From the NCBI RefSeq assembly GCF_005848555.1, contig NZ_CP040518.1, positions 991,001-1,055,000 of the forward strand: a stretch of DNA of 64,000 nucleotides, read 5' to 3'. Position 1 is the stretch's first letter; each line of letters starts with the position of its first letter. The notes beneath the pieces were generated by a model. That model searched no databases and was not told the origin of the DNA. It saw only the letters and a program-made list of their open reading frames with translations. Source of the stretch: Blautia sp. SC05B48 (GTDB lineage Bacteria; Bacillota; Clostridia; Lachnospirales; Lachnospiraceae). The translations under genes and the position numbers were made by a program. Shown here piece after piece: positions 6,058-62,421 of this stretch.

Positions 6058-6202
6058 TACATTTCACCTTATGGAAGTGCAAATTAAAATTTTCACTTCC
6101 TAATTATACATCCAACCATTACGAAATTCAATCTTTCACAACCTCTTTACAACCACAACCACAGCACTCCAGCAAACGCAGGAGCACCATACCGTAAAAC
6201 GC

Positions 6203-6580
6203 TTATGTGTAAATCAACTCCGTTCCTACAACTTCCCTCACACAAGCCTGAATATTATTCATTCTTCCAATCCATTCGTAGGGATTATCTTTCTTTAATT
6301 GTTCCGTCACATCTTGTCTGTCGGCATATTCCTTTACCAGTCGAAGAAACATATCCTCTGCTTGCTTATCGACTTCTGCAAGATAACTATGCAGCTTTCC
6401 GCTTGTCAGCAGGTTCATATATAACACTTTATAGTGTTCCTTTAAATGCCTTGCATGTCGTTTCCCCCATAAACCAATCGGCTCTATTTCTTCTTCGGCT
6501 GGTACTGTGATGTTCGGCAATAAATAATCACCCACCTGTCTATAAGTTCCGCCCATTTCTTCAAAAATTGTCTTTGTCAT
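6203..6580 (-). CDS. tnpV: TnpV-like transposon protein (copy 2)
   Basis: A 125-residue TnpV-family protein sharing the C-terminal motif (VTEQLKKDNPYEWIGRMNNIQAC) with the copy at 2481-2864. Start ATG at 6580 follows GGAGGAAAAGGAAA. It lies 26 bases after the MobV gene on the same strand, the arrangement common in mobilizable Firmicute elements. The function of TnpV is not established. Together with copy 1 it brackets the resistance cassette. Confidence 0.8.
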   Translation of the reverse strand: MTKTIFEEMGGTYRQVGDYLLPNITVPAEEEIEPIGLWGKRHARHLKEHYKVLYMNLLTSGKLHSYLAEVDKQAEDMFLRLVKEYADRQDVTEQLKKDNPYEWIGRMNNIQACVREVVGTELIYT

Positions 6581-6606
6581 TTTCCTTTTCCTCCTGTGAT
6601 TTTTGT

Positions 6607-7767
6607 CTATCGTGATCGTGTATTATCACGCTTGCGACCTTTAACTGTTCTTGCCTGCTCCAACAAATCATCTATCTGTTTGCGACCAAAAACCTTACGG
6701 AGCAGGCTGTAATCTTTATTTTCTGCTTTTAGGATTTTGTTTTCTTCGGTCAATCTTTCATTGACTTTCTCCAAACGCTGATTGGTGCGGTATAACTGTG
6801 CATTCGCTGTATTCAGCCTATGATAGTTGTCCCACCCCTCAAAGCAGCGGGCAAGCACCGTTTTGACAAGTTGCTTCAATTTCCTTACAACCGGCTCTGC
6901 CATTTTGGTTTTATATGCCTTTGCAGTCATAAATTTCTCTGGTTCTGGCAACTGATATTTCGGTGCAGTATCAAGCTCTATTTCAAGATTTGACAGCTCG
7001 TCTTTTGCCTTATCATAGTTCAATACTCGTTCCGACAACACATCAAATTCAATCTGTTTCTGCTCGATTTTCGCACCTAATGCCGCCACTTCTTTTTCTC
7101 TTTCCTGCTTTTTATAATCCAAAACAGAAAGATGTTTTTCGTGTGTGCCTAAATGTTCCCACTCAATCCCATAACGTTCCATCACCGCCGCAAGCTGTTC
7201 TTTTTCGGACTGTATCCATTGCGACCACTCCGTATCGCCACGACTGCCGCCCTTAAAACCTTGCGTTGCAAGAGCCTGCTTTAGTGACACTCTTGTATCA
7301 AGTCCACGCTTGCTACCTGTGGTAAAAGGTACAAAATCTATGTGCAGATGTGGTGTAGCTTCATCCATATGCAGATGAGCCGAGAACACCCGAAGCTGTG
7401 GATTTCGCTCCTGAAAACCCTGATAGTATTCATCTAAAATCTGCTTTGCCAGTTCTCCGTTTTCCGTATCGGCGTTCATATTTCCCTTACCGCCCACCTG
7501 TAAAATGATTTCGTGGAACGGTTTTTCCTGCTTGGAACTTCGGATTTTTTCATAATAATCTTTTATCTTTCGGTCTGACCTTATCTGCTTGGCATTGTAT
7601 CTTTCCAATGCTTCATCAAACAATTCGTGATAAACTGTCTTTATATTTTCATTGCAGTAGTCGATATTGAGATGAGTACGAGTTCCGTCTACATTTTCTG
7701 CTCGGAACTTTCGGCTATTGTGATTGACCGAGCCTTTACCGACCATTGCACTTATCGTTCTCTGCAT
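6607..7767 (-). CDS. mobV: MobV/Pre-Mob family relaxase
   Basis: A 386-residue relaxase that nicks one DNA strand at oriT to start conjugative transfer in trans. The hallmark histidine cluster HLHMDEATPHLHIDF lies at residues 131-145 (H131, H133, H140, H142), the HxHxDExxPHxH motif of MobV enzymes. The N-terminus RTISAMVGKGSVNHNSRK contains the family N-H-N-x-R motif. The C-terminal third is coiled coil (RLEKVNERLTEENKILKAENKD). I chose ATG at 7767 (GGGAGATGAAAAA) rather than 7782. It encodes no coupling protein, so transfer would need a helper conjugative element. Confidence 0.88.
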   Translation of the reverse strand: MQRTISAMVGKGSVNHNSRKFRAENVDGTRTHLNIDYCNENIKTVYHELFDEALERYNAKQIRSDRKIKDYYEKIRSSKQEKPFHEIILQVGGKGNMNADTENGELAKQILDEYYQGFQERNPQLRVFSAHLHMDEATPHLHIDFVPFTTGSKRGLDTRVSLKQALATQGFKGGSRGDTEWSQWIQSEKEQLAAVMERYGIEWEHLGTHEKHLSVLDYKKQEREKEVAALGAKIEQKQIEFDVLSERVLNYDKAKDELSNLEIELDTAPKYQLPEPEKFMTAKAYKTKMAEPVVRKLKQLVKTVLARCFEGWDNYHRLNTANAQLYRTNQRLEKVNERLTEENKILKAENKDYSLLRKVFGRKQIDDLLEQARTVKGRKRDNTRSR

Positions 7768-8101
7768 TTTTTCATCTCCCATCTGTAAATTTCAACATTC
7801 TCAGGTTTTGTTACTTTTGTCAAAAGTAACGCAAAAGCACTTTTGACGGGTACACCCATCAAAAATGCGACCTGTAAACAGGTTTTGCGTTCTCCGAAGG
7901 CTCTCCGAGGGGTGAGCGTGTGCCGGTGGCACACACGCCTGCGAACCGACCGAGCCAGCAGGCGAGACCAAAGAGCCGCCTTTGAAAAGGCACTCTCTGC
8001 ACACTCCCCTAAACTTTATCCGGTGTCAAAGTGTGACGATGGTGACAATGTTTTTCACAGCGTGCTGCTCTCAAAAACATTGACACCTTTGACACCGTTT
8101 G
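7768..8101. other. Non-coding gap, candidate oriT of the mobilizable element
   Basis: A GC-rich gap between the relaxase and the helicase with several inverted repeats: GTTACTTTTG/CAAAAGTAAC (about 7809-7831), TTTTGACGGGT/ACCCATCAAAA (about 7841-7864), and CGCCTGC/GCAGGCG (about 7938-7965). Hairpins of this kind just upstream of a relaxase gene are typical of transfer origins. No nic site can be assigned from the sequence. ORFs across this region look like shadows. Confidence 0.45.
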
Positions 8102-49236: not shown

Positions 49237-49331
49237 AGCCATCCAGCGCAGCGACGATGGCTCATCCCTCACCTTCAGACCACAGGAAACTCAGCCTTTC
49301 CTCCCAGCCATCCAGCGCAGCGTTGATGGCT
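49237..49331 (+). repeat. Multi-hairpin element copy A: short hairpins with CAGCGCAGC loop
   Basis: Two hairpins, AGCCATC/GATGGCT at 49237-49262 and 49306-49331, each with loop CAGCGCAGCGAC or CAGCGCAGCGTT. The linker CACAGGAAACTCAGCCTTTC (49281-49300) is shared with copy B at 62012-62032. The strand is chosen because the copy-B counterpart lies in the same order before its own long hairpin. Confidence 0.75.
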
Positions 49332-49435
49332 CATCCAACTCCCGGGAATCCACTCAATCCTCCAACCCTCATCAATCCCCACTTCCGCCAGTCGCCCCAC
49401 ACCCCCACCACTATCTCCCGCCCGGAACCGAACAG

Positions 49436-49644
49436 CCTGGGAGACGGGTGCCGGTTTGCTACGACTCTGCAGGAGGGGAGCTGATTCTTGGCTGGCGGAA
49501 ATCTGCGTTGTTTTTAAAAAGTTCGCTGTCTGAGCGGCAGCAAGCCGCGAGTTCGGACTTTTTAAAAACGGTTTTAGCAGAATTCCGGCAACCTAGAAGC
49601 AGCCCCCGACGAAGCCCGGAGCAAACCGGCACCCGTCTCCCAGG
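49436..49644 (+). repeat. Multi-hairpin element copy A: long hairpin with conserved core
   Basis: A perfect 25-bp inverted repeat (49436-49460 with 49620-49644) encloses 159 bases. Next to the arms lie core blocks at 49465-49496 and 49603-49616, which match copy B almost base for base. Between them a further nested hairpin of about 100 bases is inserted (GCGGC-agcaa-GCCGC tip near 49536). No gene occupies 49046-49783. Confidence 0.85.
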
Positions 49645-49783
49645 CGTCCGTCATCCACCATCCACCACAAAGAAAGAGCGCTCCCGCAGCCCATCCAGCC
49701 CACAAAGAACGCTCTCCTCATTTCCATCAGCTTACAATCATACACGATCGCCTGCGATCAGCATACAATCCCATACGATTGCA

Positions 49784-61969: not shown

Positions 61970-62062
61970 AGGCCGACAGCGAAGCGCCTCAGCCCATCCA
62001 CTCCGTCAGGCCACAAGGAAACTCAGCCTTTCGCCCCAGGCATCCAGCGCAGCTCTGATGCC
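61970..62062 (+). repeat. Multi-hairpin element copy B: short hairpins
   Basis: A weak hairpin AGGC/GCCT (61970-61989) and a stronger one GGCATC/GATGCC (62039-62062) with loop CAGCGCAGCTCT. Compared with copy A the stem has a compensatory C-G to G-C change. The linker 62012-62032 matches copy A at 49281-49300 with one extra A. The gap 61793-61969 is otherwise empty. Confidence 0.7.
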
Positions 62063-62147
62063 CCATCCCCTACCGGAAAACCACTCAACCTACCACTCCA
62101 AATAAACCTACCGCCCTACCACCCTACCGTCCTGAACCTCACAGCCC

Positions 62148-62242
62148 GAGCCGGGGATGCTGCCTGGTCTGCCTCTGCAGGAGAGGAGCTGATTCTTGGC
62201 TGGCCCCCGACGAAGCCGCAGACCAGGCAGCATCCCCGGCTC
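62148..62242 (+). repeat. Multi-hairpin element copy B: long hairpin with conserved core
   Basis: A perfect 25-bp inverted repeat (62148-62172 with 62218-62242) encloses 45 bases: core block 62173-62204 and block 62204-62217, nearly identical to copy A. The arm sequence is unrelated to that of copy A. Flanks ACAGCC before and AGGCGT after are shared. It lies just upstream of the promoter region of the CapA gene (TATAAT at 62293-62298). Confidence 0.85.
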
Positions 62243-62421
62243 AGGCGTACGTTCAATCCCCACCCCCTCTTCCCACCAAAATAAAAATCTGCTATAATAC
62301 AACCACACAACAAAAAATCAAACAACAAAGTGGCATTCACATTCCACTACACCAAACACTCATGAATGCAATCACCAATCAATCGCATTCAGAATCCAAA
62401 GAAAGACAAGGTAAAACATAA

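Follow-up and report, generated by a model that had tools for sequence, protein, structure and literature searches.

A family of structure-conserved interspersed palindromes with freely varying helices in Blautia and related gut Clostridia

The window considered here is a 64,000-nt stretch of Blautia sp. SC05B48 (contig NZ_CP040518.1, positions 991,001 to 1,055,000). It carries two members of a dispersed palindrome family, the full-length copy A and the truncated copy B, with short hairpins upstream of each (Table 1).

Table 1. Elements of the two family members and their upstream hairpins, in positions of the window.
Feature	Positions	Strand	Remarks
Short hairpin 1, upstream of copy A	49237..49262	+	Loop CAGCGCAGCG
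Short hairpin 2, upstream of copy A	49306..49331	+	
Copy A, full-length rod	49433..49649	+	5′ CAGCC ... GGCGTCC 3′; covariance-model match G000:C1:1040431-1040650; ends as in other copies
Outer helix P1 of copy A, 5′ arm	49435..49463	+	Sequence variable; 29 nt, 97% complementary to 49617-49645
Loop I of copy A, 5′ side CTCTGCAGG	49465..49473	+	Conserved among the copies compared
Loop motif GCGTTR of copy A, 5′ side	49505..49510	+	Faces YGNNTTTAGC
Fixed-length inner helix of copy A, 5′ strand	49510..49525	+	16-17 bp in the copies measured
Apical motif of copy A, CTGTYTGAGC - variable hairpin - GCGAGTTY	49526..49554	+	Tandem G.A/A.G beside a GC clamp
Fixed-length inner helix of copy A, 3′ strand	49554..49569	+	
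Loop motif TTTAGC of copy A, 3′ side	49573..49578	+	From motif-pattern matches
Loop I of copy A, 3′ side CCCCCGACGAAGCC	49603..49616	+	CCGAMGAAGCC or CCGAAACCGC in other copies
Outer helix P1 of copy A, 3′ arm	49617..49645	+	Pairs with 49435-49463
Short hairpin upstream of copy B	62039..62062 (approx.)	+	Loop CAGCGCAGC
Copy B, truncated rod	62142..62250	+	Arms 62144-62172/62218-62246; ~108 nt of the inner domain gone

A family member, hereafter called a rod, is a palindrome of ~210 nt that folds into one long rod-shaped hairpin. From the outside in, it is formed by a variable outer helix of ~25 to >50 bp, loop I (CTYTGCAGG opposite CCGAMGAAGCC or CCGAAACCGC), T.T-mismatch motifs of the CTTAG/CTTAG kind, a loop in which GCGTTR lies opposite YGNNTTTAGC, and a helix of 16 or 17 bp topped by the apical motif. 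The rod starts with CAGC at its 5′ end and has GCGTCC or GCGTACC directly after the stem at its 3′ end. The conserved part of the rods is the set of internal-loop motifs, while almost every paired base changes. The spacing of the motifs is fixed, and a reversed control pattern gives zero matches.

Copy A is a single rod-shaped hairpin of −133.3 kcal/mol (z = −11.3, folded as plus-strand RNA), and none of its shuffles folds as well. The minus strand is nearly as stable (−130.9 kcal/mol), as expected for a palindrome. The apical motif pattern has one match in the window and none in 100 shuffles. A first-pass annotation of the window had described inverted-repeat arms around copy A; these are present and can be extended to the 29-nt arms of Table 1, and the extended arms of copy B are likewise 29 nt long and 97% complementary. 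The core blocks at 49465-49496 and 49603-49616 are also found again in copy B, as first described. On the other hand, the arms of the two copies, which had been called unrelated, are alignable diverged homologues. Copy B shares its ends and loop I with copy A but has no inner domain. In Blautia massiliensis, the orthologous site (L203), with flanks that are 92% identical, holds a full-length rod, and copy B is therefore an internal-deletion derivative. One arm pair at this site is C-G in the present genome and T-A in B. massiliensis.

The same annotation had also placed a CTCT-GCAGG-AGRG hairpin in both copies and read the plus strand from a single pair in it, A-U in copy B and G-U in copy A. 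Only the truncated copy B folds into this hairpin. Full-length copies have CTCTGCAGG on the 5′ side of a large internal loop, opposite CCGACGAAGCC, and the one-base argument fails as a result; the plus strand is instead favoured by the mismatches of the inner helix described below. The short upstream hairpins are real, two of them before copy A and one before copy B. The loop CAGCGCAGC occurs four times in the window against 0.28 expected. Blautia rods usually have co-oriented short hairpins with the loop CAGCGCAGCG just 5′, and ~14 of the 20 such hairpins in the present genome lie immediately upstream of a rod.

Searching the present genome with 19 core bases yields 8 genuine copies. A covariance model built from seven of them finds ~17 places in this 3.73-Mb genome, reverse-strand echoes left out, and rods in 12 of the 25 genomes of the genus, the present one included, with similar copy numbers in related Blautia. 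Across Blautia and related gut bacteria, the rods range from a few to ~90 dispersed copies per genome. The loop-motif pattern CTGTYTGAGC..GCGAGTTY..TTTAGC matches at least 120 stretches of named genomes. Among the matches listed are many Blautia species, Fusicatenibacter, Mediterraneibacter, Coprococcus comes, [Ruminococcus] faecis, Clostridium sp. chh4-2, Candidatus Scatomonas, and others, and the matches from Clostridia that were folded are mostly rods. In an order-wide model search, only hits of ~100 bits or more were trusted and lower ones were left out, since any long palindrome scores from its pairs and the reverse strands of rods reach 97 bits. This search underestimates the copies because just 6 candidates were scored per genome.

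Two genomes illustrate how abundant the family can be. The Lachnospiraceae genome G049 has 93 motif matches and none for the reversed control pattern. The metagenome-assembled genome (MAG) G042 has ~22 full-length copies that are 93-97% identical and lie in unrelated flanks, together with many short forms that share one internal deletion junction, which indicates that the truncated form itself has spread. The family has no match in plasmids, phages, or 2.9 million viral contigs (IMG/VR). Rfam gives no match at the gathering score and chance-level matches only in a permissive search, and the literature searched for the motif or for Blautia repeats holds no description. The early remark that no named family fits thus stands for Rfam and the literature searched. 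The rods form a real family of interspersed palindromes in which structure is conserved and sequence is free, and the sources searched contain no account of it.

Several further arrangements were observed. Near-identical rods lie ~0.9-1.3 kb upstream of three 16S rRNA genes (L192, L193, L194; G000:C1 near 3.723, 0.263, and 1.137 Mb), and several of these are followed by tandem copies of the 3′ arm and a spacer. Rods frequently come in close inverted pairs, separated by a few hundred bp and with the 5′ ends face to face (L301, L307, L310, L314, L058, L061, L041, L207). At the G049 loci L299-L329, many rods sit inside further nested inverted repeats (GTTACTnTTCAC...GTGAAnAGTAAC; CAATGTCAGTnAGTTAAG), which look as if several palindromic families were stacked. 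The pattern matches in Methylotenera, Deltaproteobacteria, Elusimicrobia, and Phormidium differ in architecture and are not counted as family members. A different dispersed element, with TGTYTGAGC..GCGAGTTT and TTTAGC, is found in Methylotenera and another proteobacterial MAG (L143, L151, L152). A shorter dispersed hairpin of Alkaliphilus peptidifermentans (L070, L096, L177, L180, L182) shares the apical motif, CTGTTTGAGC..GCGAGTTT, and TTTAGC, and is possibly a distant relative.

The helices covary strongly. In an alignment of 34 diverse copies, both sides have changed in 71 of 78 base pairs and 96.4% of the cells are paired, compared with 37-48% when the partner is slid by 1-3 columns. The covariation score is 0.827, against 0.217 for shuffled and at most 0.171 for slid alignments, so compensatory change, as expected of a structure-conserved RNA or folded DNA, lies well above the controls. 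Since this alignment had been fitted to the model, the innermost helix was retested without it. In 101 distinct sequences, 1540 of 1634 positions are Watson-Crick, and the helix is 16 bp long in 83 and 17 bp in 18, with no other length. Its mismatches are G.T more often than A.C (43 vs 17, p = 0.001), which indicates that the plus strand is of some importance; in helices 6 and 7 of A3, the corresponding counts are 55 G.U and 9 A.C. By comparison, 97.8% of the 813 cells of the outer helix are Watson-Crick, and wobbles and A.C mismatches number 6 each, so that there is no wobble excess. In 20 copies of G049, the arms are 96.2% complementary within a copy and 75.8% between copies, and core identity is 92.3% compared with 75-77% for the arms. 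The proposal of a dispersed structured RNA or folded-DNA repeat under selection for structure is thus upheld by many copies in related genomes, not just two, and by massive covariation that is far stronger than the one-base argument. These data do not, however, fully distinguish selection for structure from correction of the arms by template switching.

This covariation could in principle be purely mutational, with template switching rewriting one arm from the other and neither function nor specific recognition involved. Template switching has been documented to create and maintain perfect hairpins (PMC8794818), and the match of arms within but not between copies, the near absence of wobbles in the outer arms, and the frequent deletions are all consistent with such a process. 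However, correction alone would erase the internal loops, yet the loop motifs and the 16-17 bp ruler persist over several genera, and the amplification to ~22 similar full-length copies is left unexplained. We consider a purely mutational origin improbable. The arm changes at short divergence are single-sided and double in ratios of 2:0, 5:3, and 10:10, and double changes prevail at larger divergence, a pattern that fits selection, template-switch correction, or both. Since double changes do not outnumber single-sided ones at short divergence, template switching is not proven.

With dnaA at 1.493 Mb and the terminus taken as opposite to it, 15 of the 17 copies in the present genome oppose the replication fork (p = 0.002), copies A and B among them. 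On the main contig of B. massiliensis, with coordinates read by hand, 17 of 18 copies behave similarly, although these are mostly orthologous copies and not independent. Judged by local GC skew, 78 of 115 loci agree with the fork-opposing orientation (p = 2e-4). The bias is 44 of 52 in five Blautia groups, which were picked out afterwards, and it is absent in two lineages (6 of 12 and 8 of 14). The gene on the 3′ side converges on the element more often than not (60 vs 25). The genes around the copies are arranged as +− in 33 cases, −− in 20, −+ in 13, and ++ in 12, an excess of convergent spacing with no clear preference for co-transcription.

The rods could also be transcribed as a plus-strand structured RNA, for example as a dispersed RNA or mRNA-tail element whose internal loops are bound by a protein and which affects transcript processing, stability, or termination. 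The plus-strand wobble preference of the inner helices points in this direction, and the conserved non-canonical loop motifs and the fixed helical ruler resemble an RNA-protein module. However, wobbles make up only ~2.6% of inner-helix pairs and <1% of outer-arm pairs, which we consider low for an evolving RNA, and the copies occur in all gene arrangements. The young copies in G042 have no common upstream sequence able to serve as a carried promoter, as a stand-alone non-coding RNA gene would have with each copy, and around copy A there is neither a plus-strand promoter match nor a terminator match. Also, most copies face the fork, and transcripts running on from co-directional genes would thus give chiefly the opposite strand. 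Action as RNA is therefore a possible but rather unlikely reading. We rate action at the DNA level as the more likely of the two.

Rods are both lost and gained. At the site of copy A, only the start of the 5′ arm is left in B. massiliensis and only the 5′ end and the 3′ arm in B. luti, while G005 has neither the rod nor the short hairpins. These deletion scars show loss, and the young G042 copies show gain. The dispersal of the young copies, the outer inverted repeats GTTACTnTTCAC...GTGAAnAGTAAC around some G049 copies, and the defined ends (5′ CAGC and 3′ GCGTCC/GCGTACC) would suit a miniature transposon of a classical DDE or Y1 transposase in which the conserved rod is incidental. In terminal-repeat elements, however, the ends are the conserved part, whereas conservation in the rods is highest in the core and lowest at the ends. 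There is also no resolved target-site duplication, no linked transposase was found, and the family is missing from the plasmids, phages, and viral contigs searched. A classical miniature transposon is thus very improbable.

Candidate protein partners were considered individually. No Y1 gene, the mark of a Y1/IS200 transposase, was found in the carriers G014, G017, G048, G051, G052, G054, and G055. No rod motif lies within ~4.5 kb of 10 RAYT-like or Y1-like matches, which removes RAYT from the candidates. The RVT_1 reverse transcriptase was not found in the carriers G042, G048, G050, G013, and G017, and is therefore not required. Among the genomes and loci examined, no transposase or recombinase is tied to the rods, and no target-site duplication is evident by eye in the G042 or G049 flanks, where the outer arms have decayed. 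One IS605-type element (tnpA of 149 aa and tnpB of 418 aa) does lie inside a rod, just after CTGATTCTTAG (L190 ~6100-8060; G000:C1 ~3119100-3121060). The B. massiliensis orthologue of this rod is uninterrupted, so the IS605 element is a secondary insertion.

Taken together, we give an even chance to the reading in which the rods are a new family of interspersed non-autonomous palindromes that act as a folded single strand, probably DNA, whose loops are read by a putative protein. The working form would most likely be a folded single strand, probably of DNA that becomes single-stranded at replication or within a cruciform. The protein would recognise the conserved internal loops at their fixed helical spacing and not the helix sequence, which could then drift because pairing alone matters. 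Template switching during replication (quasi-palindrome correction) and selection may each have a part in restoring arm complementarity. Copies would spread by a putative transposition route and later be lost through palindrome-driven deletion, leaving truncated forms such as copy B. This folded-strand reading is favoured by the covariation, the fixed spacing, the amplification, the arm match within copies, and the lack of a wobble excess in the outer helix, as well as by the lack of a shared upstream sequence in young copies, the opposition to the fork, the deletion scars, and the convergence of 3′ genes. Counted against it are the lack of a linked transposase or recombinase among the genomes examined and of an evident target-site duplication, the G.U tolerance of the inner helices, which also fits an RNA, the single-sided arm changes at short divergence, and the two lineages without orientation bias. 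More tentatively, the rods may be a chromosomal, fork-opposed, structure-only element in which a folded DNA strand is read by its bulges at fixed helical spacing by a putative dedicated protein and the helices are rewritten by template switching. Such an element may serve gut Clostridia as a new signal for recombination, replication, or chromosome organisation, or the rods may be a new class of dispersed RNA.

Long palindromes are normally unstable in bacteria. The rods show that abundant gut species keep tens of them, with near-complete sequence turnover and a preserved architecture. As a natural experiment they are unusually clean for asking whether selection or template switching produces compensatory change, and they point to a putative protein that reads structure and not sequence. 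If they act as RNA, the human gut would have in them a large class of RNA that is not annotated. Fremin and Bhatt (2021, PMC8040213) reported 250 palindromic candidate structured RNAs from gut metagenomes. Some of these could be pieces of the rod family, although the main text of that paper names none from Blautia or the Lachnospiraceae.

One close comparison is with the REPs tagged GTAG or CGTC, as described in the main text of Di Nocera et al. (2013, PMC3733652). Both REPs and rods are dispersed intergenic palindromes that are rich between convergent genes, form oppositely oriented pairs, vary in their stems, and carry an unpaired tag beside the stem (in the rods, the 3′ GCGTCC/GCGTACC). The CGTC REPs are, like the rods, without a dedicated transposase. 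By that account, REPs are 20-40 bp long with stems of 5-13 bp, whereas the rods are ~210 nt long and have, besides a ruler helix of fixed length, several conserved internal loops. The CGTC REPs have the tag at one end and a CCA-like tail at the other, whereas in the rods the tag follows the stem and no such tail is seen. Firmicutes or Clostridia are not mentioned in the main text of PMC3733652. In Blautia, the 3′ tag of the rod contains CGTC, though placed otherwise than in the CGTC REPs. REP/RAYT membership is ruled out by the ~210-nt size and by the absence of rods flanking the RAYT-like genes examined.

MITEs, ERIC, Correia, and BOX elements are interspersed, non-coding, 100-300 bp long, and able to fold, and they keep conserved terminal or internal sequence. 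The rods are likewise interspersed, non-coding, and foldable, but their helix sequence is free and their loops are conserved. The conserved terminal inverted repeats of MITEs also have no counterpart in the rods, where arm identity between copies falls well below that of the core. Integron attC sites have variable stems, and they are recognised not by sequence but by structure, through the extrahelical bases that a folded single strand presents. Their likeness to the rods is an analogy of mechanism only. Members of neither the REPs nor any Rfam family, the rods appear to work most like a folded-strand recognition element such as attC or REP.
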